From Fibrobacteria bacterium GUT307 (GTDB lineage: Bacteria > Fibrobacterota > Fibrobacteria > Fibrobacterales > Fibrobacteraceae), in contig LIUI01000026.1 of NCBI GenBank assembly GCA_001462235.1, positions 1 to 34,255 of the forward strand: a stretch of 34,255 nucleotides of DNA, given 5' to 3'. Positions within the stretch are counted from its first letter, which is position 1. Each line of letters starts with the position of its first letter. The notes beneath the pieces were generated by a model. The model did no database searches and was not told the DNA's origin. It worked only from the letters and a program-made list of their open reading frames with translations. Both the position numbers and the translations under genes were made by a program. Positions 2,188-33,968 of this stretch are shown here, piece by piece.

Positions 2188-2218
2188 AACGCTAGAAATC
2201 CCACAAAGCAAATTTTTC

Positions 2219-2224
2219 TATATT
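2219..2224 (+). promoter_or_regulatory. -10-like TATATT box with no annotated gene
   Basis: TTTTTCTATATTT matches the -10 style found before many genes in this window. No convincing -35 is seen. It precedes a short hairpin (TTGAAAA-tgagg-TTTTCAA, 2231-2249) and a 15-codon ORF, so it may drive a small transcript. Confidence 0.4.
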
Positions 2225-2250
2225 TGTAAATTGAAAATGAGGTTTTCAAT

Positions 2251-2298
2251 ATGCAAAGATATATTAGAATCCCTTGCTGGCAGGGTAGGCTTTATTGA
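2251..2298 (+). CDS. Possible 15-residue mini-ORF
   Basis: ATG at 2251 reads MQRYIRIPCWQGRLY and stops. It is preceded by TGAGGTTTTCAAT, the same layout as the GAGGTATTTT ribosome site before the two OmpA genes, and by a TATATT box 26 bp upstream. It ends 21 bp before the tRNA-Phe -35 box. It is too short to judge by composition and may be chance. The alternative is a small RNA, since two small hairpins occur in 2231-2285. Confidence 0.2.
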   Translation: MQRYIRIPCWQGRLY

Positions 2299-2318
2299 AC
2301 AAAAACGACACATAACAC

Positions 2319-2347
2319 TTGACAAGTGTTTAAATTTTTGCTATATT
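2319..2347 (+). promoter_or_regulatory. Promoter of tRNA-Phe (TTGACA-17-TATATT)
   Basis: TTGACA at 2319-2324, a 17-base spacer and TATATT at 2342-2347 make a near-perfect housekeeping promoter. Transcription should start a few bases before the mature tRNA at 2357. Confidence 0.85.
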
Positions 2348-2356
2348 TACCTATAT

Positions 2357-2429
<73 letters not shown>

Positions 2430-2457
2430 CTAAAGGCCACTAGAAATTCGGGGTATT

Positions 2458-3798
2458 TTATATTCCTCTTACCATGATTTTTGAATTTCTGTTCTGGTTG
2501 TATTTTTCCATTTTTAATTTTGGCAGGTCTTCCAGAGAGCCATCCTTGAAGCCTAGGGTGTAGAACCAGTCGGAGGCTTGGGTTGTTAAAAGAAAGAGTT
2601 TCTTTGCTTTTAATTTTTTTGCCTTCTCTATCAAAAAATTCACAACAGCTTCGCCTATGCCGGCATCTTTATAATTTGCGTCAACGGCAATGGCCGCAAT
2701 TTCGTAGCTATGATTTTCAAAGGCGTGCAATGCGCCGCAACCGTGGATAGCATTATCCACAGCGTAAACTACATAGTCGCTTAGTTTTTCTTCAATGTCT
2801 TCTTGGCTTCTTGCAAGCAAAAGCCCGCGTTCCACATAATTCTGCATAATGCCGAGCATATCCGGAATATCCTCAATGATTGCGGTACGCAAGTTCAAAT
2901 AATCATTTGCATAAACCATAGTTCCATTGCCTCGGCTGGAGAACACTTCTTGCAAAATGCTTCCCTGCCATATACCGTGAACCAAATGAATTCTCTTTAC
3001 CCCTGCACGGCAGGCTTTTATGGCATTTTCCAGATAGTCGCGTTGCGCAAAGGGCAGTTGCGGATTTAATTCCAGAATTTCTGTGGCTTGGCTAATGTCT
3101 AGCGCAGAGATTAAGCCGTGGTTGGAGAGTTCCAATTTCTTTGTAAATTTGCCACGCACAAGCCCTTCGGTTTTTATTCCTCCTTCTTCCCCTATAAAAA
3201 ATAATTTCCCAACGGAAAGATAGCGGCTGAATTCGGTTGCAAGCTCTGTGCTGGAAATGTTGTAAGCATGCCCAAGTTTGTTCCAGCCAATGGGCGGCAA
3301 AATAGGGATAAACCCCTCTTGCAGGAGCTTTTCTATAATGGTTTTTTCAATGCGTTCTATCTTCCCGGTTTGCATATAATCTACGCCGTTTATAACGCCT
3401 AAACTCCGTGCCTGCACCCAATTCCCCTGAATGCCGTTAATTCCGTTTGCCGTTAAATGAGAGAGTATGCGTTGTGCCGCCCCTAGCGATGCCTGCTCTG
3501 CCAAAGGCAATGCTTCTTGCGAGGTTAAGCGAATTCCATTTTGGAAAACGGATTGCAACCCATAAGCATCGAGTTGGCGGTCTATGCTATTCCTTGTGCC
3601 CGGCACTATCAAGATTTTTATGCCCACGCTATGCAACTGCGCAATATCACGCACAAGCACCGGAAATGCCGGGTTATCCAGAAGAGAATCTTCAATTTTT
3701 AATATGAACAACTGCCCTTTGAACCTAGAAATGTAAGAAAACACTTCCCTGATTGAACTTGCAAGGGCATTGTTAAAATGATTATTTGCTACAGGCAT
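2458..3798 (-). CDS. argA: Amino-acid N-acetyltransferase (N-acetylglutamate synthase)
   Basis: A 446-residue protein, close to the usual ArgA length. Residues about 20-280 are an amino-acid-kinase fold (VGIKILIVPGTRNSIDRQL near the start, SSTELATEFSRYL in the middle). Residues about 300-445 are a GNAT acetyltransferase domain with the acetyl-CoA loop ANYKDAGIGEAVV and the TTQASDWFYTLGF segment. ArgA transfers acetyl from acetyl-CoA to glutamate as the first step of arginine synthesis, and the kinase-like domain normally senses arginine. The first residues RFKGQLFILKIEDS fit the ArgA start. There is no Shine-Dalgarno site. A TACCTT -10 box ends 6 bases before the ATG, which suggests a leaderless mRNA. 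It is divergent from secA. Confidence 0.9.
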   Translation of the reverse strand: MPVANNHFNNALASSIREVFSYISRFKGQLFILKIEDSLLDNPAFPVLVRDIAQLHSVGIKILIVPGTRNSIDRQLDAYGLQSVFQNGIRLTSQEALPLAEQASLGAAQRILSHLTANGINGIQGNWVQARSLGVINGVDYMQTGKIERIEKTIIEKLLQEGFIPILPPIGWNKLGHAYNISSTELATEFSRYLSVGKLFFIGEEGGIKTEGLVRGKFTKKLELSNHGLISALDISQATEILELNPQLPFAQRDYLENAIKACRAGVKRIHLVHGIWQGSILQEVFSSRGNGTMVYANDYLNLRTAIIEDIPDMLGIMQNYVERGLLLARSQEDIEEKLSDYVVYAVDNAIHGCGALHAFENHSYEIAAIAVDANYKDAGIGEAVVNFLIEKAKKLKAKKLFLLTTQASDWFYTLGFKDGSLEDLPKLKMEKYNQNRNSKIMVRGI

Positions 3799-10500: not shown

Positions 10501-10639
10501 CCAAGCCGGGCCATCCACCATTATGGCAGAAATTTTCACAAAATACGCAGACAAAACCGAACAACGGAAAATTGTATCTTTGCAAATGTCAAACGCAAAA
10601 AAGGACAGAATGGTGGAGGTAGCAGAATTTGAATTTTAA
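7586..10639 (+). CDS. VIT / von Willebrand A / DUF2135 lipoprotein
   Basis: About 1017 residues from ATG 7586. The track start at 7538 lies upstream of the promoter and inside sua5. The N-terminus is a signal peptide ending in the lipobox LLNSC. Residues about 60-200 are a VIT domain (VQVEV-type strands, ENKTDRILEGEL-like, LPDGRTVTSYALDINGK). Residues about 300-460 are a VWA-like domain with a MIDAS-type DVSLSGS. Residues about 735-865 carry TPR-like helices (ETALRVLTSIADLE). Residues about 895-990 are a DUF2135 beta domain (VINWNMDNTDIDLHVKDP). VIT+VWA proteins usually bind metal and other proteins at the cell surface. The next gene, a FISUMP protein, starts 11 bp before its stop. Function beyond surface binding is unknown. 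Confidence 0.88.
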   Translation: MSIRSLFTRTFLPFLLCMLSVLLNSCSPPEKKIVQQYAQEQAPQAPYTVDTVTSDTILQQAQLPVLKIDRKENPDVYLQSLDIQVEVTGNIASTRYTMVFKNKTDRILEGELTFPLPDGRTVTSYALDINGKMRDAVPVEKAKATQVFEEIEQRQVDPGLLERVEGNNFRTRIYPIPSNGIRTISIGYEEELALERGLQYYRLPMAYPDSLEKFAVKATVWKSSQKPLVPESDDEIRFDIAGENYVASLARENYRPSRALIFALPVPTDIPQVMMQPAQGSHYFFASVAPKMETRKKQWDSDLAIIWDVSLSGSQRNLEREMEILDIIFAEKKNADVNLYLLNNKLNGKGKYKVANGNWDELKNALNTAIFDGGTDFSKIDLNNIAGNEILFFSDGISTLSDADFLKNAKLNRPVHSFVSSSKADYSTMKLIAGKTKGKFVNINALSPERLKTELLNETLQFLGTEHGNAVSEVYPSIATPVHGNFSVAGISSVNDAELTLLFGFGNKVEKRIKVQLDAKKAVGQGNVYKIWAQKKITELDLSYEKNRTELAELGQQFGIVTRNTSLIVLETISDYVLYGIEPPATEPGLRTEYLRRAKGREDRQQDTGYNLLKYAVAAAEKIKIWWNTDFTSKKPKYPTPDNMERPVSLSQADTSARNNIPKGMNVEAVDVVGWMDNPSADFVLDQATEGSGTLPDLMGGLLMSGPTGSKSQPTITIKPIKQDNDYLNKLTGKTADDYQIYLKLRNDYANSPTFYFDMANWFYTHNDRETALRVLTSIADLELENASLYRLLGYRLKEYGEYALEKFVCQKVIEWRPMEPQSYRDYALALADNGEAQAALDTLYSTLTKSYSENLGRRNLGIAEVVIMEINHLIAKNPSLNTSRIDKRLIINIPVDIRVVINWNMDNTDIDLHVKDPNNEQCYYRKLETSIGGRISDDITSGYGPEQFLLKKAVKGKYRVYVNYYGDRQFTQAGPSTIMAEIFTKYADKTEQRKIVSLQMSNAKKDRMVEVAEFEF

Positions 10640-11225
10640 GATACTAATAATCGCAACTGTTTTGGCTCAGCAGGTTTTTTCTGCTGGGCAAACTGCCATG
10701 ATGGCGGATTACAGAGACGGCAAGAGATATGAAACCGTCAAAATAGGCACCCAAACTTGGATGGCAGAGAATTTGAATTACGATCTAAACGGCAGTATAT
10801 GCTATGGCAACAACCCTGCCAACTGTGCAATATACGGCGGATTGTATAATTGGGAAAGAGCTATGAAAGCTTGCCCCTCCGGCTGGCATTTGCCAACTAA
10901 AGAGGAATGGGAAGTGATGACATCTTATATTGGCGGAGCCGAAAAAGAAGGAAAAAGACTAAAAGCGGCAAACGGCTGGAATAGAAGCGGCTGGAGCAAG
11001 AACGGCATTGGTACGGACAGCTACAACTTTTCTGCGCTGCCGGGCGGCAGCGGCAACTCGGGTGGCAGTTTCTACGGTTTAGGCAGCAATGGCTACTGGT
11101 GGAGTTCCAGCGAGAGCAGTAATCGCACCGCCTACCGCCGGTTTATGCATTACCTCAGCGAATCTGCTATTTGGAAAAGCGAAGATAAGAATGAATTGTT
11201 CAGCGTTCGTTGTTTGAAAAACTAA
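10629..11225 (+). CDS. Secreted FISUMP-domain protein
   Basis: A 198-residue protein with a TTG start and a signal peptide (MNFKILIIATVLAQQVFSAG). Almost all the rest is one FISUMP domain, the 'Fibrobacter succinogenes major paralogous' domain. Its signature pieces are YRDGKRYETVKIGTQTWMAE, NLNYD, CYGNNPANC, YGGLYNWERAM, CPSGWHLPTKEEW, FSALPGG, GYWWSSSE and the final FSVRCLKN. The domain is of unknown function, C-type-lectin-like in pattern and abundant in this phylum. The gene overlaps the VIT/VWA lipoprotein by 11 bp and has GGAGGT about 9 nt ahead of TTG, so translation is coupled. I infer that the two products act together at the surface. It ends 19 bp before the convergent holA. Confidence 0.92.
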   Translation: MNFKILIIATVLAQQVFSAGQTAMMADYRDGKRYETVKIGTQTWMAENLNYDLNGSICYGNNPANCAIYGGLYNWERAMKACPSGWHLPTKEEWEVMTSYIGGAEKEGKRLKAANGWNRSGWSKNGIGTDSYNFSALPGGSGNSGGSFYGLGSNGYWWSSSESSNRTAYRRFMHYLSESAIWKSEDKNELFSVRCLKN

Positions 11226-14017: not shown

Positions 14018-14045
14018 TCTCACTCATTCCCCAATGAGGTATTTT

Positions 14046-15716
14046 ATGAAGAAAACATTTTTGACGTTACTTTTGGTTCTCTGCGCAGGCATCCACGCTC
14101 AGAGTAGGCACGAATTCTCATTATATGGCGGTGTTGGTTGGTCAACTATGCTATATGATAATGAATTGGGAAAAGGTACTAGCGAAATAGGCGGCGGATT
14201 ATTCGGGCTAGGGTACACCTTTTTCTTTTCCGAATATTTAGGATTGGGATCGGGAGCCGAATATGCCTATTACCGAAATAAAGAAGAAAGCGGAGGTGAA
14301 GACCTTCACAAACAACGAGTTCATCAGCTTCAGATTCCGCTAATGCTTCAGTTTCAGATAGGTGACTGGCATAAGTACTATCTTGCAGCAGGGGCTAAAG
14401 TTGGAATACCTTTAGATATATCCTCTGAATTTGTATCCCCTAAATTCGAAGTAGGCGGAAAAGATTATTCCGACGATCTCCGAACAACCTTTCTGGCATC
14501 TGCAGAAACAGGTATGAAATGGCAGTTAAAAGAACATCTGTATTTATATACAGGAGCTTATTTGGACTATGGGCTGAATTCTTTTGTCAAAGATGTTAAG
14601 AGTAAGCCGTTTGCGGTTGGGCTTAAATTAAAATTGGCTTTTGGAAGCGGTTCTGTTGTAGATTCGCTTCATTTGAAATTCAGCGCAGGGGCCGATTCCA
14701 TACAAATGGGAGAAAGCACTGTTTTGAATTGGATTGCCATAAACGCAAACGAAGCTAGCATAGAAGGCATAGGGCCTGTTCCGGTAGAAGGTTCAATTAA
14801 GGTCAATCCTTCCCAAACTACTAGATATACCATCACTGCAAAAGGCAAGGGTGGCGAAAAAACAGAATCTGTAATTGTTGCGGTAAAACTTCCGCCACCT
14901 CCCTCAATTGTGTTTACAGTAAGCCCAAAAACAATACAAGCAGGGCAGGTTGCCGCACTGAATTGGATGGTTTCCAATGCCGATGAAATTATCATAAAAG
15001 ATGTAGGGGCTGTTCCCGACAAAGGTACAGCGGAAGTAAAACCTTCGGAAACAATAAGATATACTATTATCGCGAAGGGCAAAGGTGGCGAAAAAACAGA
15101 AACTGTGGAGCTAGTTGTAGAGCCTCCGCCAGGCCCTTCTGTTATATTCAATGCTGTTCCGGGGTCAATATATAGAGGGCAAATTGCTACATTGAACTGG
15201 ATTACCACGGATGCAGACGAAGTGAGCATAGAAGGAATTGGCTCTGTTCCTCTTAAAGGCACAAGTGAAGTAAAGCCTTCCGAAACCACTAAATATACTC
15301 TTATCGCAAAAGGAAATGGCGTAACTAAAACGCAAATTGCAGAGGTTATAGTGGAAGAGCCGCCACCCATAGAAGAAAAAGTCAACTTGAAAGGCGTAAA
15401 CTTCCTTTCTGGCAAAGCTGAGCTTTCGCTTGATGCCAAGAAAGTACTGGATGGAGTCGCAGAACAACTTTTGACATACCCTAATGTTAAAATTGAAATT
15501 CACGGATACACGGATAATGTAGGCCAGGCAGTTACAAACCAGAAATTATCCGAAGCCCGTGCAAAATCGGTTATGAATTATTTGGTTAGCAAAGGCGTTA
15601 AATCGAATAGAATGAAAGCGACTGGCTATGGACCAAAGCAACCCATCGCAGACAATTCAACCGAAGAAGGCCGTGCACTTAACCGCCGTATAGAGATGGT
15701 AAGGGTAGATAAATAA
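14046..15716 (+). CDS. Outer-membrane OmpA protein with three Ig-like repeats (copy 1)
   Basis: About 556 residues from ATG 14046, chosen because GAGG sits 8 nt ahead and the paralogue starts at the same point. The track's 14034 start lies on the ribosome site. After the signal peptide (ending HAQ) comes a beta-barrel of about 180 residues with alternating aromatic strands. Three tandem Ig-like repeats of about 75 residues follow, each with a G-Q/E-x-A-xLNW core and ending in YTI(T/I)AKGKGGEKTE. The last about 110 residues are an OmpA/MotB peptidoglycan-binding domain (VKIEIHGYTDNVG, NQKLSEARAKSV, LNRRIEMV). The likely role is a tether between outer membrane and wall. It is a tandem duplicate of the next gene. 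Confidence 0.88.
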   Translation: MKKTFLTLLLVLCAGIHAQSRHEFSLYGGVGWSTMLYDNELGKGTSEIGGGLFGLGYTFFFSEYLGLGSGAEYAYYRNKEESGGEDLHKQRVHQLQIPLMLQFQIGDWHKYYLAAGAKVGIPLDISSEFVSPKFEVGGKDYSDDLRTTFLASAETGMKWQLKEHLYLYTGAYLDYGLNSFVKDVKSKPFAVGLKLKLAFGSGSVVDSLHLKFSAGADSIQMGESTVLNWIAINANEASIEGIGPVPVEGSIKVNPSQTTRYTITAKGKGGEKTESVIVAVKLPPPPSIVFTVSPKTIQAGQVAALNWMVSNADEIIIKDVGAVPDKGTAEVKPSETIRYTIIAKGKGGEKTETVELVVEPPPGPSVIFNAVPGSIYRGQIATLNWITTDADEVSIEGIGSVPLKGTSEVKPSETTKYTLIAKGNGVTKTQIAEVIVEEPPPIEEKVNLKGVNFLSGKAELSLDAKKVLDGVAEQLLTYPNVKIEIHGYTDNVGQAVTNQKLSEARAKSVMNYLVSKGVKSNRMKATGYGPKQPIADNSTEEGRALNRRIEMVRVDK

Positions 15717-15744: not shown

Positions 15745-17460
15745 ATGAAAAAAACGTTTTTGATGTTACTTTTGGTGCTCTGTGCAGGTCTTCATGCTCA
15801 GAGCAGGCATGAATTCTCGTTATATGGCGGTGCCGGTTGGGCTACTTTGCTTTATGATGATGTGGCTACCGATAAATTTAATAAGTTTAAAGGCAGAACA
15901 GACTTTGGCGCCTTAGGCGGGTTAGGGTACACCTTCTTCTTTAACGAATATTGCGGTTTGGGGTTAGGAGCCGAATATGCTCTTTACAACAGTGAACCCG
16001 AATTTGGCGATCCTATTGAACGAGCAAAATTGCAACTCATGGCAGTTCAAATTCCGCTTATGCTTCAAGTACAGGTAGGCGGCTGGCACAAGTTCTTTCT
16101 TGCAGCAGGAGGTAAGCTAGGATTGCCCATTGATGCAAGTTCCAAATCAAAAAAAGATGGCTATAAAGATTGGCCAGAAAAGCCCAAACTTGAAGTAACA
16201 GATGCTATCATTTCTGCGGAAATGGGAGCGAAATGGAAGTTTAAGGAGGGTATATATCTTTATTCCGGATTTTATTTGGATTACGGAGTGAACAGCATGC
16301 TAAAGAGTGGATACAGAAATGCAACCAAAGAAAATCCGGATATGACGCCGCTTGCAGCCGGGTTTAAGCTTAGACTAGCCTTAGGGGGCGGTTCTGTACT
16401 CGATCCGCCTGTTTTGGAATTCGTCACAGGGCAAGATTCTATATCTGCCGGGCAAAGCGCTGTTTTAAAATGGATTGCTTCCAATGCAGATACGGTATAT
16501 ATAGACGGCGTAGGGGCTGTTCCGGCCCAAGGCTCGGCAGAAGTAAGCCCTTCCCAGACAGAAAGATATACCATCACTGCCAAAGGCAGGGGCGGCGTAG
16601 AGACAAAGTCCGTGCTTGTTGCGGTAAAACCTTTGCCTATTCCCTCAGTAGCATTTAGCATAAGTCCAAAAACCATACTGAAGGGGCAAGCTGCTACTCT
16701 AACCTGGATGGTTTCTGATGCAGATCAAATTAACATGGTTGGCGTTGGACTCATGCCAGACAAAGGCACTATGGAAGTAAAACCCTCGGAAACAACTAAA
16801 TACATTCTTACCGCTAAAGGAAAAGGTGGTGAGAAAACGGAATTTGTAGAAGTAGTTGTAGAGATTCCACCTGGCCCATCGGTTATATTCAATGCAACTT
16901 CCCCGATAATACAAAAGGGACAATCTGCTACTTTGAATTGGATTACCACAGATGCAGAAAGTGTGAGCATAGAAGGAATAGGGCCTGTCCCTGATAAGGG
17001 CACTAGAACTGTGAAGCCTACTCAAACCACTAAGTATGTTCTTACCGCAAAGGGAAAGGATGAGGTTAAAACAGAAATGATGGTGGAAATCATCGTGGAA
17101 GAACCACCTCCCATAGAGGAAAAAGTCAACTTAAAGGGTGTAAACTTCCTTCCGGGCAAATCAGTGCTTTCGCTAGATGCCAAGAGGGTGTTGGATGGAG
17201 TTGTAGAACAGCTTTTGGCGTATCCTAATGTTAGAATTGAAATTCAGGGTCACACAGATAATTTGGGCAAGGCAGTTACAAACCAGAAATTATCAGAAGC
17301 CCGTGCCAAGGCAGTTGTGGCTTATTTGGCTAGCAAAGGCATTAAACTGAATAGAATGAAAGCGGTTGGCTATGGACCAAACCAACCAATAGCAGACAAT
17401 TCAACCGAAGAAGGCCGTGAGCTTAACCGCCGTATAGAGATGATCAGAGTAGATAAATAA
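15745..17460 (+). CDS. Outer-membrane OmpA protein with three Ig-like repeats (copy 2)
   Basis: A 571-residue paralogue of the preceding gene with the same order: signal peptide MKKTFLMLLLVLCAGLHAQ, a beta-barrel (about 20-215), three Ig-like repeats (about 220-450, joined by short Pro-rich linkers such as EEPPPIEEK) and an OmpA C-domain (VRIEIQGHTDNLG, LSEARAKAVVAY, ELNRRIEMI). The signal peptide and C-terminal domain are nearly the same in the two copies, while the barrels differ in length and in surface-loop-like stretches. The ribosome site GAGGTATTTT is identical to that of copy 1. It ends 2 bp before the convergent thiG stop. Confidence 0.88.
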   Translation: MKKTFLMLLLVLCAGLHAQSRHEFSLYGGAGWATLLYDDVATDKFNKFKGRTDFGALGGLGYTFFFNEYCGLGLGAEYALYNSEPEFGDPIERAKLQLMAVQIPLMLQVQVGGWHKFFLAAGGKLGLPIDASSKSKKDGYKDWPEKPKLEVTDAIISAEMGAKWKFKEGIYLYSGFYLDYGVNSMLKSGYRNATKENPDMTPLAAGFKLRLALGGGSVLDPPVLEFVTGQDSISAGQSAVLKWIASNADTVYIDGVGAVPAQGSAEVSPSQTERYTITAKGRGGVETKSVLVAVKPLPIPSVAFSISPKTILKGQAATLTWMVSDADQINMVGVGLMPDKGTMEVKPSETTKYILTAKGKGGEKTEFVEVVVEIPPGPSVIFNATSPIIQKGQSATLNWITTDAESVSIEGIGPVPDKGTRTVKPTQTTKYVLTAKGKDEVKTEMMVEIIVEEPPPIEEKVNLKGVNFLPGKSVLSLDAKRVLDGVVEQLLAYPNVRIEIQGHTDNLGKAVTNQKLSEARAKAVVAYLASKGIKLNRMKAVGYGPNQPIADNSTEEGRELNRRIEMIRVDK

Positions 17461-18243: not shown

Positions 18244-18280
18244 GAAAAATTTACCATTGAATGACAATTGGGCCAAAACC

Positions 18281-18309
18281 TTGACATTTGTCATAAAAAA
18301 TGCTATATT
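18281..18309 (+). promoter_or_regulatory. Promoter of the Ser-linker lipoprotein (TTGACA-17-TATATT)
   Basis: TTGACA at 18281-18286, a 17-base spacer and TATATT at 18304-18309 form a consensus-like promoter, 31 nt before ATG 18341. It supports the later start over the track start at 18257, which precedes the promoter. Confidence 0.85.
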
Positions 18310-18340
18310 TATAGCTGATTTAACCTTTGGAGATGCAATT

Positions 18341-18925
18341 ATGAAAAAAGCATCAAAATTCTTGGCTTTTGTAGTCTTTATTGCAGTCATAGCTGCTTGC
18401 AGCAGCGGCAATGACAATAACGATGAAAACAGCGGCAACCTTTCATCCTCTTCGGGTGGCGGTAGCAACATATCTTCTTCCAGTGACGTTGGCAACAACA
18501 CGCCATCTTCAAGCAGCGATGGCGCACCCTCTTCTAGCAGCGGTGGTAACATTGGCGATGGCGGAGCGTGCTATCTCAATATTAATTTATTCGGACTTGT
18601 CAATGTAGGTACATGTGCAGAAGGACAGCTCATGAGTCAAGAAGAATGCGATTTAGCAGCGGAAGAAGCAGAAGCGGAGGGATTAGAATATGAATTTGAA
18701 TATGGGACTTCTTGCCCATCCGATTACGCACTTGACTGCGGGATAGATGATGAAGGTCTCCATGTTTATGTATATGGCGATGCTACCGTTCTTGCAGCAT
18801 TAGGAATGGCAACTTGCGAAGATCTTGAAGAAGATGATGGAGAAGAGTATTATGCTAAAAAAACATCTTCCTCCAAAAAACATTTTTCTCCTATTAAAAA
18901 ACTTTCCCCCTTGACAAAGTTTTAA
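18341..18925 (+). CDS. Lipoprotein with Ser-rich linker, unknown function
   Basis: About 194 residues from ATG 18341. GGAG lies 9 nt ahead and the promoter just upstream. The signal peptide ends in the lipobox VIAAC. Residues about 20-75 are a low-complexity linker with four SSSS/SSSSS blocks split by Gly/Asn/Asp, a style seen in Fibrobacter surface lipoproteins. The remainder has six Cys (ACYLN, GTCAE, EECD, TSCPS, LDCG, ATCED) and is very acidic before a basic C-terminal tail rich in Ser and Lys. I do not recognise the domain. The even Cys count suggests disulfides outside the cytoplasm. Its stop codon overlaps the -35 of the next promoter. Confidence 0.8.
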   Translation: MKKASKFLAFVVFIAVIAACSSGNDNNDENSGNLSSSSGGGSNISSSSDVGNNTPSSSSDGAPSSSSGGNIGDGGACYLNINLFGLVNVGTCAEGQLMSQEECDLAAEEAEAEGLEYEFEYGTSCPSDYALDCGIDDEGLHVYVYGDATVLAALGMATCEDLEEDDGEEYYAKKTSSSKKHFSPIKKLSPLTKF

Positions 18926-29894: not shown

Positions 29895-32588
29895 TTAGAA
29901 ATCAAGATTTAAGCCTCTTTCTCTGGCTTCTTCAATAGGGGTAAGGGGCTTTTCTTCCTTACGGCTCAGGGTATCGCGGAGTTTTTGCTGTTTTTCGTAG
30001 TTCTCTTGCAAGAATGCGTTTTGTTTGGATTTGTTCAAAATGGACTGTGCTACAAAGACAGCTCTCCCGGCATCAGGGACATAGACAACGGGTTGTTTGC
30101 CAAGCGGTGCTATTTTTGCCGCGGTGTGCAAAGCAGAAGTTGTTGCACCGCCTATCATAACGGGAATATCAAGATTCTCTTTTGAGAGAATTTCCACAAC
30201 AAAACTCATTTCTGCGAGGCTTGGAGTTATAAGCCCGGAAAGCCCAACCAAATTCGGAGTGTGTTCCTTGACTGCTTCCAAAATTTTTTCTGCGGGGCAC
30301 ATTACGCCTAGGTCTATTATTTCGTAGTTATTGCAGGCTAGCACAACTGCTACTATATTTTTTCCAATATCGTGAACATCGCCTTTTACGGTTGCCAGCA
30401 ATACCTTTCCCGCCTTTGCACCCAATCCTTTGCGTTCTGCTTCAATATGGGGTTGCAAAACGGCAACCGCCTTTTTCATAACTCTTGCGCTTTTCACAAC
30501 CTGCGGCAAAAACATTTTTCCCGCACCAAAAAGTTCGCCGACTTTATTCATGCCGTTCATCAAGGGTTCTTCTATTACTTTGAGCGGGCTGCCAAAAGCG
30601 ATGCGTGCTTCTTCTGCATCAAGTTCTATAAAGGAATCCATGCCTTTAACCAGGGCATAAGAAATACGCTCTTCCAAAGGCAATTCTCTCCAAGCAAGAG
30701 CATTTGCGTTGCCCGTTGTTTCGCTTTTGCGTTCCTTGATGCTTTCTGCATATTGCAAAAGGCGGTCTGTTGCATCCGTGCGGCGGTTGAAAATAAGGTC
30801 TTCTATCAAGTCCCTTTCTATAATGGGAATATCATCGTAAATAGGGAGCTGCCCTGCGTTCACTATGCCAAAATCCATGCCGGCTTTTGAGGCGTGGTAT
30901 AAAAAGCAGGAGTGCATACTTTCACGGATTGCATTATTGCCCTTAAAAGCAAAACTCAAATTTGAAATTCCGCCTACTATGTGCGAGTGCGGCAAATTTG
31001 CCTTTATGAATTTGCAAGTCTCTATAAAATCTTTTGCATAGTCTGCGTGTTCTGCAATGCCCGTTCCTATGGAAAGAACATTTGGGTCAAAGAAAATATC
31101 GCAGGGGTTAAAATTCAATTTTTGAGTGAGCAAATCATATTGCCTTTTGCAAACCTCAATCCTTCTCTCGTAGCTATTCGCTTGTCCCTGCTCGTCAAAA
31201 GCCATGCAAACAAGGGCAAAGCCCATACGCTTTACTTCCTTCGCTTTTTTTAAGAATGCCTCTTCGCCTTCTTTTAAGCTAAGCGAATTCACAATGCCTT
31301 TTCCGGGGAAGCATTCCATTCCCGCAAGCAAAACTTCAAAGTCCGAGCTATCCACCATAATGGGGCATTTTGCCGCTGCCGGTTCGGAAACATAGAGGTT
31401 CACAAAATGCTGCATTTTTTCTTTTGAGTTTAGCAAACCGTCGTCCACATTTATATCTATGATTTGCGCGCCGTTTTCAATTTGGGTAATGGAAATAGCT
31501 ATAGCTTCGCTCCAGTTATTTTCCCGGACCATCTTTGCGAATTTCAAACTGCCCGCCATATTATTCCGTTCGCCGATATTTATAAAATTGCTGTTTTCTG
31601 TGATTTCAATGGGTTCCAAGCCGGAGAGTTTAGTTGTTTTTTTTATATCAGGGATTTTTCTCGGGGCTTTATTTTGCACTGCCTTTTTCATGGCCGCGAT
31701 AGTGTCTGGGGTAGTTCCGCAACAACCGCCCACTATGTTGAGCCATCCGTTGTCTGCAAATTTTTCAATGTGCTTTGCCATGCTTTCCGGTGTTTCGTCA
31801 TAACCGCCGAGTTGGTTTGGAAGCCCTGCGTTGGGATATGCGCTTACAAAAACATTTGCAATTCTTGAGAGTTCCGCAATATGCGCACCCATTTCTTCTG
31901 CGCCAAGGGCGCAGTTCAAACCTATGCCGAATAAATCATATTCGCAAATAGAATTCCAGAATGCTTCTAAAGTTTGCCCGGCCAAAAGCCTTCCGGAAGC
32001 ATCGCTTATAGTCCCCGAAACCATAACAGGAACTTTTATCCCTCGTTCTTCTTGTTCCAGCGAGGCGGCATATAGGGCTGCTTTGCAGTTGAGGGTATCG
32101 AATACCGTTTCTATCAAGAGAATGTGTACGCCGCCGTCTAAAAGCCCTTTTATTTGCGTTTGGTAAGCGTTTGCGAGTTCTCTAAAGCTAACACCTCTGC
32201 TTGCAGGGTCTTCTACTTTGCTTGCCATGCCGGATGCTTTTGATGTTGGGCCTATGGAGCCTGCTACAAAGTGTTTGCCACCGTGCTTTTCAATGGCTTT
32301 GCGAGCTATTTCTGCACCGGCTTTGTTCAGTTTATAGCATTCGTTTTCCATTCCATAGTCTGCTTGGCTAATGGCATTTGAGTTGAATGTGCAAGTTTCT
32401 ATGATGTCTGCACCGGCTTTAAGGTATTCGGAGTGGATGCTTTCTATAACATCCGGGTGAGAGAGCACCAGAGAATCGCTTGCTGTTAAATTGTGTTTTT
32501 GAATCATAGTTCCCATTCCGCCGTCTAGCAGCAGGATGCGTTCTTTAGCTAAGGAAAGTAAGGAAGAATAAGCGGCGGTTGGTTGCAT
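29895..32588 (-). CDS. metH: Cobalamin-dependent methionine synthase lacking the activation domain
   Basis: An 897-residue MetH, which moves the methyl group of methyltetrahydrofolate to homocysteine via cobalamin. Residues about 1-310 are the homocysteine domain with zinc ligands in GLNCALG and [10 protein letters not shown]. About 335-600 is the pterin domain ([28 protein letters not shown]). About 650-740 is the cap and about 745-880 the cobalamin domain with [11 protein letters not shown]. It ends soon after ([19 protein letters not shown]), about where the AdoMet-dependent reactivation domain begins in the 1227-residue E. coli protein. The ATG lies 8 nt after a TACCTT box, with no Shine-Dalgarno site. 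Confidence 0.96.
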
Positions 32589-32602: not shown

Positions 32603-32622
32603 GAAAATTTTACCCCAGCCGC

Positions 32623-33158
32623 TCAGTCTTTGACGCAACGGACAGAGAACAAAGAATGCATACCGTATTCGGTGGGAGTTGCTCCATCATTGTAGGAGCT
32701 TATAATATATACACATTTGTTCTCGGAGTTGGTAGTGCACGTTGTTCCTGCATTCCACCAGAAACCGCCGTTGCCCATATCTTGGTGATTGTTATCATAG
32801 TAGCCTCCTCCTGGCAAAGCGGAAAAGCCGTAATAGTCTTCACCATTGCCATTGTTATCCCAGCCACTTACTGCTTTAAGCCTCTTTCCAACATCTGTAG
32901 TACTGATACAATAAATTATCATTTCCTCCCACTCGGCTCTGCTTGGCAAATGCCAGCCCGTGGGACATACTGTATTAGCCACTTCCCAGTTGTAAAGCCT
33001 GCCGTACTCAACGTTTCCTCGCTGGATGAGCTGGGCGGCACCGCAACCGAACTGCTACTTGTGGGAACGCTACTGGAAGAAGGCAATGCTTCCACGCTGG
33101 AAGAGGAATTTTCCACTTCGCTTGAAGAGCTTGACGCAGCCAGTAAGAGGGGAAGATA
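32623..33158 (-). pseudogene. Decayed FISUMP lipoprotein gene
   Basis: On the minus strand a good promoter box (TTTTCTATCTT) is followed at once by LLLAASSSSSEVENSSSS..., a Ser-linker with the start codon, most of the signal peptide and the lipobox Cys missing. After the linker (SSSSEET) the frame shifts, and the other frame carries EYGRLYNWEVANTVCPTGWHLP... to FSVRCVKD, the C-terminal half of a FISUMP domain. The first half (the IGTQTWMAENLNY part) is gone. Two deletions and a frame break explain the two separate ORFs in the track (32623-32982 and 32919-33308). An intact copy elsewhere would be needed to date the decay. Confidence 0.85.
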
Positions 33159-33239
33159 GAAAATGCTCCGCAAACTTCCTTTCTCCGGTGGGGAGAAAAT
33201 TGGGGTAACTGGTGGAAGTAATTTAAAGACAGAATTTCC

Positions 33240-33252: not shown

Positions 33253-33672
33253 ATGCAAAGCATGGAATTAGATATTGCACCGCTGAAAAATGCTGTTAGA
33301 GCACTCAAAGCCAGTATTGGCGATTACAATGAGTATTCTCCCAAAGGAGGGACATTAAAAGATACTCTTCGTTCCGGTGTAATTCAGAATTTTGAAGTGG
33401 CTTACGAGCTTTCTTGGAAATTTATGAAACGATGGCTTTCTTTTAATGTTAGCCCGGAACTTATTGAAGGAGCTCCTCGTTATGAGCTTTTTAAATATGC
33501 TATGGAAAAGGATTTAATATCGGATTTAGATAAATGGTTTGATTTTCATAAGGCGAGAAACAGAACAGTTCATGAATACAACGAAACAACCGTAGAAGAA
33601 GTTCTTGGTTTTGCAAAAAAATTTGTTTCTTATGCAGAGGAATTTATCGAAAAATTAGAGGCGAAATTATGA
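33253..33672 (+). CDS. HEPN-type nucleotidyltransferase partner (HI0074 family)
   Basis: About 139 residues from ATG 33253. It is all-helical and carries FEVAYELSWKFMKRWLSF and later KARNRTVHEYNE. The second holds RNRTVH, the RX4H motif of HEPN nucleases. The family (HI0074, also called nucleotidyltransferase substrate-binding protein) pairs with the MNT protein encoded next. In related HepT/MntA toxin-antitoxin systems the HEPN protein is a ribonuclease that the MNT partner silences by AMPylation. The ATGA overlap with the next gene (33669-33672) gives tight coupling. It lies next to a decayed gene in an accessory-looking region. Confidence 0.85.
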   Translation: MQSMELDIAPLKNAVRALKASIGDYNEYSPKGGTLKDTLRSGVIQNFEVAYELSWKFMKRWLSFNVSPELIEGAPRYELFKYAMEKDLISDLDKWFDFHKARNRTVHEYNETTVEEVLGFAKKFVSYAEEFIEKLEAKL

Positions 33673-33968
33673 TTGCGATTTCAGAAAATTCTTTGAATTT
33701 GGTTAAGGATATTTTGAAAAATACAGTTCCGAACAGTGAAGTCCGAGTTTTTGGCAGCAGAGTTAACGGAACAAACAGAAAACATTCCGATTTGGATTTA
33801 GCCTTAATAGGCAAGGAAAAATTTGGAATTTCCATTCTCGGAAATGTCAAAGAAGCTTTTATGGAATCAACGCTCCCGTTCAGGGTTGATGTTTTGGATT
33901 ATAATGCTGTTTCTGAAAATTTTAGAAAAATTATAGATGCAAATTATGAGATGATAGATTTCAATTAA
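33669..33968 (+). CDS. Minimal nucleotidyltransferase (MNT, HI0073-like)
   Basis: A 99-residue protein with the polymerase-beta-like core VRVFGSRVNGTNRKHSDLDLAL. GS-R-x-x-G holds the nucleotide and S-D-L-D-L supplies two metal-binding Asp residues. A third acidic residue is offered by PFRVDVLDYNAV. Such minimal enzymes transfer AMP to their HEPN partner and act as the antitoxin in MntA/HepT systems. The start codon overlaps the HEPN stop (ATGA), so the pair is one translation unit. HEPN comes first here. All active-site positions I can check are kept, so it looks functional. Confidence 0.87.
   Translation: MIAISENSLNLVKDILKNTVPNSEVRVFGSRVNGTNRKHSDLDLALIGKEKFGISILGNVKEAFMESTLPFRVDVLDYNAVSENFRKIIDANYEMIDFN

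Follow-up and report, generated by a model that had tools for sequence, protein, structure and literature searches.

We analyzed a window of 34,255 nt that makes up contig C26 of the draft genome of the termite-gut Fibrobacteria bacterium GUT307 (2.62 Mb, 157 contigs). Near its end, the minus strand from 33163 down carries, in order, TTTTCTATCTT-CCCCTCTTA, a Ser-rich linker, FISUMP domain positions 45–176, and a stop codon at 32623. Directly downstream lies metH (29895–32588, minus strand), with a start and an element of its own, the latter being TTTTCTACCTT at 32607–32597. On the other side, 28 nt (33163–33190, plus strand) remain from the 5′ end of an AAA-ATPase-like gene (PF09820) that diverges from the FISUMP promoter; near-identical starts occur on contigs C47 and C63, and the C47 fragment matches Pfam with an E value of 2e-4. 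Farther upstream of the FISUMP remains are genes for a HEPN protein (HI0074/NTase_sub_bind; 33253–33672) and an MNT nucleotidyltransferase (33669–33968), both on the plus strand. This pair (33253–33968) contains the motifs RNRTVH and GSRVNGTNRKHSDLDL, has a promoter-like element of its own before 33253, and resembles type VII (HepT/MntA) toxin-antitoxin pairs. Elsewhere in the window, two tandem paralogous ORFs (14034–15716 and 15745–17460) of similar length and sequence apparently encode outer-membrane/OmpA-like proteins. In seven congeners, the stretch from metH to its neighbor is free of FISUMP genes, and other genes lie upstream of metH; the FISUMP gene at the metH site is therefore species-specific.

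Remains of a FISUMP gene

The downstream part (32623–33009, minus strand) is an open frame of 143 aa comprising domain positions 45–176 and the stop codon, with no stop codon inside the domain half. It matched TIGR02145 at 33009–32626 (E = 3e-27; 96.3 bits against a cut-off of 41.65), as well as PF09603 (78.6 bits against a cut-off of 33.9). The Ser-rich linker ahead of it (33009–33145, minus strand) is, by translation, in another frame, and a usable ATG start is absent from both the linker frame and the domain frame. Exported FISUMP-family proteins need a signal, and here positions 45–176 are found alone, instead of all of positions 1–176 in a single frame following such a signal. The minus-strand segment 32623–33163 is a pseudogene of a FISUMP family member and not a working member. 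The first-pass annotation had described a FISUMP lipoprotein pseudogene whose halves are out of frame, and the profile matches, the two frames, and the missing start codon agree with it on both counts. It had also put the loss at the first half of the domain; the domain is indeed truncated, but by 44 of the 176 positions, about a quarter.

Another reading of the domain half is that it yields a short functional protein from an internal GTG start. The corresponding ORF of 119 aa (32982–32623) does exist and retains SVRC, the terminal motif of the family. However, it lacks a signal peptide and, besides domain positions 1–44, several further positions, and neither a promoter-like element nor an ATG stands ahead of it. 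We find such a product hardly credible.

To locate an intact copy with the same Ser linker, as had been proposed together with a check of the deletion endpoints for short repeats, we searched the same genome and found an open-frame relative on contig C150, with an ATG start and a lipoprotein-type signal. The pseudogene linker is 92.7% identical to C150:4361–4225 over 137 nt and the 3′ tail is 93.8% identical over 48 nt, whereas the domain is only 64–69% identical. At a first junction (33144–33145, minus strand), 117 bp of C150, from the start codon to the lipobox and beyond, are missing between TCT(TA) and (TA)CTGG, with a 2-bp TA microhomology. This deletion took the start codon, the signal peptide, and the lipobox, in agreement with the annotated loss of the signal peptide start and the lipobox Cys. 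At a second junction (33008–33012, minus strand), the end of the Ser linker (GTTG) runs directly into domain position 45 (AGTACGG) in another frame. About 298 nt are lost there in C150 terms, a length that is approximate because the two domains are no more than 64–69% identical; as it is not a multiple of three, the remains read in two frames. Paralogues read N-C-x-x-Y-G-R at this site, and, with one of them reading NCVEYGR, a GTTG repeat at the ends of the second deletion is plausible but unproven. Seen against C150, the pseudogene has undergone two deletions: one took away the start codon together with the signal peptide and lipobox, the other a part of the linker and domain positions 1–44. 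At this domain identity, C150 is not for certain the exact progenitor of the pseudogene.

The broken structure could in principle be an artefact in which repetitive FISUMP copies were mis-joined in the metagenome assembly while the real gene is intact. The draft holds 88 FISUMP matches in its 157 contigs, several copies are located at the ends of contigs (C65, C70, and C147), and the window, itself a contig of this draft assembly, ends about 1.1 kb away. Conversely, the sequence is gap-free from metH to the HEPN–MNT pair, the first junction has a simple microhomology, and other broken FISUMP copies exist. The domain half has no near-identical counterpart elsewhere in the assembly (best match 69–71% identical) and so was not patched in from another assembled gene. 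We consider mis-assembly improbable.

The high identities of the linker and 3′ tail around a much less similar domain also form a mosaic of the recombination type, and the domain half is free of stop codons, as would suit a silent donor cassette, that is, a stock of domain sequence that could recombine into expressed FISUMP genes by way of their common linker and 3′ tail. However, the genome yielded no recipient with the pseudogene domain sequence, and a single mosaic can also result from one ordinary recombination or from a domain that diverged faster. A donor role appears distinctly improbable, and we prefer the reading of a gene lost by two deletions.

The promoter-like core element

The element TTTTCTATCTT (33153–33163, minus strand), a −10-like promoter core element of the dead gene, is the same as that before the C150 ATG. 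The pseudogene and C150 are identical through TTTTCTATCTT and the following CCCCTCTTA, and the C150 ATG stands 8 nt after the motif, so that the annotation was right to place the motif exactly where the start-codon region follows. The 35 nt upstream of the pseudogene element differ from those of C150, and sequence has been replaced there. What the pseudogene keeps is the promoter-like core only, intact and in place, with a foreign upstream flank. The statement that it "keeps its promoter" accordingly holds for the core element but not for the upstream region, which is unlike that of C150 and includes the divergent AAA-ATPase-like gene start.

Across the genome, TTTTCTATCTT occurs 42 times, against 8 for a reversed control. 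Among 171 ORFs, 23 have the motif TTYCTAYNTT in the 80 nt ahead of them (2.5 expected), with a peak 6–8 nt before the ATG. This suggests that TTYCTAYNTT is a −10 element for transcripts with no leader or almost none. Across 32 promoters, no conserved −35 element was seen by which the upstream flank of the pseudogene could be judged. The same arrangement of motif before start is found at metH of several congeners. The genome-wide position of the motif, of which 32607–32597 is an example in the window, also suggests that leaderless transcripts are common in the genus.

We considered whether TTTTCTATCTT might instead encode the hydrophobic core of a signal peptide, as the linker frame reads SIFYLPLLLAASSSSS there, and rejected this reading. 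In C150, the same 20 nt precede and reach the ATG, and the signal peptide proper, MQACHPNRFKHIFAIFGVAFFLSC, is encoded within the 117 bp missing from the pseudogene.

FISUMP copies and a diversity-generating retroelement

The genome has 88 FISUMP matches, and several other copies are broken or truncated: those on C67 (frameshift and stop), C65 (frameshift), and C11 (5′ truncation), a copy on C139 in which the Ser linker is joined out of frame to the domain end, and short remnants on C134, C22, and C56. These findings support the earlier statement that FISUMP genes multiply and decay in this genome.

The single RVT_1 match in the genome lies on contig C155, in a diversity-generating retroelement (C155:1029–3254) composed of an Avd-like ORF, a template (approximately 1960–2154), and a reverse transcriptase (2205–3254). 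The reverse transcriptase matched PF00078 (E = 1.5e-16) and phrog_1423 (E = 2e-82), which are general models, none of them specific to such retroelements. The Avd-like ORF matched NF033474 (E = 7e-7) and phrog_3206, "Avd protein of DGR" (E = 1e-11), with NCBIfam and Pfam bAvd scores both below the curated cut-offs. The template between them is an AAC-rich repeat that reads as a FISUMP C-terminus; its adenines all fall at codon positions 1 and 2, and 24 of its 64 codons are AAY. A reverse transcriptase, an adjacent template, and an accessory Avd are hence all present. Relatives of the reverse transcriptase include those of Candidatus Fibrimonas termitidis GUT221 and other Fibrimonadaceae, and in five congeners, as well as in other genera, the reverse transcriptase likewise follows a template repeat of this kind. 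One congener (G008) has two templates, each with its own closely matching target or targets (2–3 non-A changes).

Four FISUMP genes (C155:33580, C155:65791, C55:14899, and C93:36077) are clear targets, a term we reserve for copies with almost no non-A changes. Relative to the template, 22–36 of 65 adenines are changed in them and 0 of 130 other positions (Fisher p = 2e-12 to 1e-21); that is, their variable regions differ at adenines only. Adenine bias was significant in 35 of 77 FISUMP copies. We dropped the idea of counting these as 35 targets, as variable loops can give such bias without a retroelement, and older or unrelated divergence can contribute to it. Several known retroelements, not all, have a hairpin behind the variable region. 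Here, a strong stem stands directly 3′ of the stop codon at C155:65791, C155:76051, C155:33580, C137, and C103:1305, and it is absent or weak behind the C55 and C93 genes. The pseudogene keeps the left arm of this post-stop hairpin, TGAGCGGCTGGGGT (32612–32625, minus strand), as does C150; the hairpin is complete behind the best retroelement targets.

In the pseudogene, the equivalent of the variable region (32626–32825, minus strand; 14 gap columns) differs from the present template at 29 of 63 adenines and 43 of 129 other positions, which is no adenine bias (Fisher p = 0.06, with indels). We therefore rejected the pseudogene as a recent product of the retroelement, and its link to the element is through its family only.

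The window contains a second FISUMP gene at 10629–11225 (plus strand; TIGR02145 positions 2–176, E = 3e-54), which the first-pass annotation had used as the intact copy for comparison. The gene is open, but it has a TTG start and no lipobox Cys, and its product looks secreted rather than being a lipoprotein. That comparison also missed the variable-region-like 3′ end of the gene (11029–11223, plus strand), which is similar to a diversity-generating retroelement template and in which 30 of 65 template adenines and 24 of 130 other positions are changed (p = 6e-5). This bias comes with too many non-A changes for a recent product of the present template. An AlphaFold2 model of the protein had a mean pLDDT of 43.9, too low for reading a C-type lectin fold, and a PDB sequence search on the same question returned no significant match. 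A lipoprotein-like ORF at 18257–18925 has Ser-rich linkers like those of FISUMP genes, without the FISUMP domain.

A 22-bp repeat, TCAGAACCCCGATGCCCCCGAT, was found at 39 places in the genome (up to 3 mismatches; 0 in a reversed control), including C155:1065, C155:3210, C101:5174/5252, C93:36613/36692, and C15:15150/15291. The sites often form inverted pairs approximately 80–170 bp apart and are REP- or MITE-like. Two of them bracket the retroelement, and several follow closely on FISUMP genes; the window has none.

Interpretation and known systems

With a probability of roughly 85%, we regard the locus as a dead FISUMP surface-lipoprotein gene in a family that includes targets of one diversity-generating retroelement and whose copies are gained and lost. 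The template repeat of that retroelement encodes the FISUMP C-terminus. The members would be exported receptors or adhesins, and their binding face may be rewritten by error-prone reverse transcription fed by one template. Copies would be gained, mixed by recombination, and lost, and the pseudogene would be one such lost copy.

FISUMP (Fib_succ_major; TIGR02145, PF09603) was previously counted 70 times in IN01_307 (Fibromonadaceae; Microcerotermes gut), 116 times in Ca. Fibromonas termitidis, and 54 times in F. succinogenes S85, and the proteins were filed as cellulose-binding or possible cohesin analogues, in a text that does not mention retroelements or reverse transcriptase (PMC4704652). 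The domain and the high copy number are the same here, but the present genome has a retroelement that targets these proteins. In human microbiomes, Fib_succ_major proteins are known targets of diversity-generating retroelements (Ye 2014, PMC4159848), and that system is similar in its reverse transcriptase, template, adenine-specific changes, and C-terminal variable region, with one target being a lipoprotein. It comprised 9 target proteins across many samples, whereas here at least 4 clear targets share one template and about 35 adenine-biased paralogues occur in one Fibrobacterota genome. As in the present case, the TvpA system of Treponema denticola involves predicted surface lipoproteins and remote targets (PMC4891356), and Trichodesmium erythraeum, with 18 template/variable-region loci, has many targets per genome (PMC8867640). 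The taxa and target families of both differ from ours, in which the family is larger and most copies have diverged from the present template. We found no report of FISUMP as a retroelement target in Fibrobacterota in the open-access literature, a search scope that leaves most subscription journals outside. The pseudogene is ordinary in itself and FISUMP is already known as a retroelement target, but the Fibrobacterota case is apparently unreported.

For termite-gut Fibromonadaceae, we lean slightly towards the view that FISUMP proteins form an exported receptor or adhesin repertoire in which one retroelement template (or two) overwrites many dispersed genes while copies are steadily gained, recombined, and lost, and that such a repertoire, not a cohesin-like role, accounts for the size and variability of the family. 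The pseudogene shows that FISUMP copies are lost by small deletions, which matters little alone. The family result matters more. FISUMP is one of the most strongly expanded domains in Fibrobacterota, and a retroelement that rewrites FISUMP C-terminal ends at chosen codons points to a rapidly changing binding surface in place of the cellulose-binding or cohesin-like role proposed earlier, a question that is testable from existing termite-gut reads.
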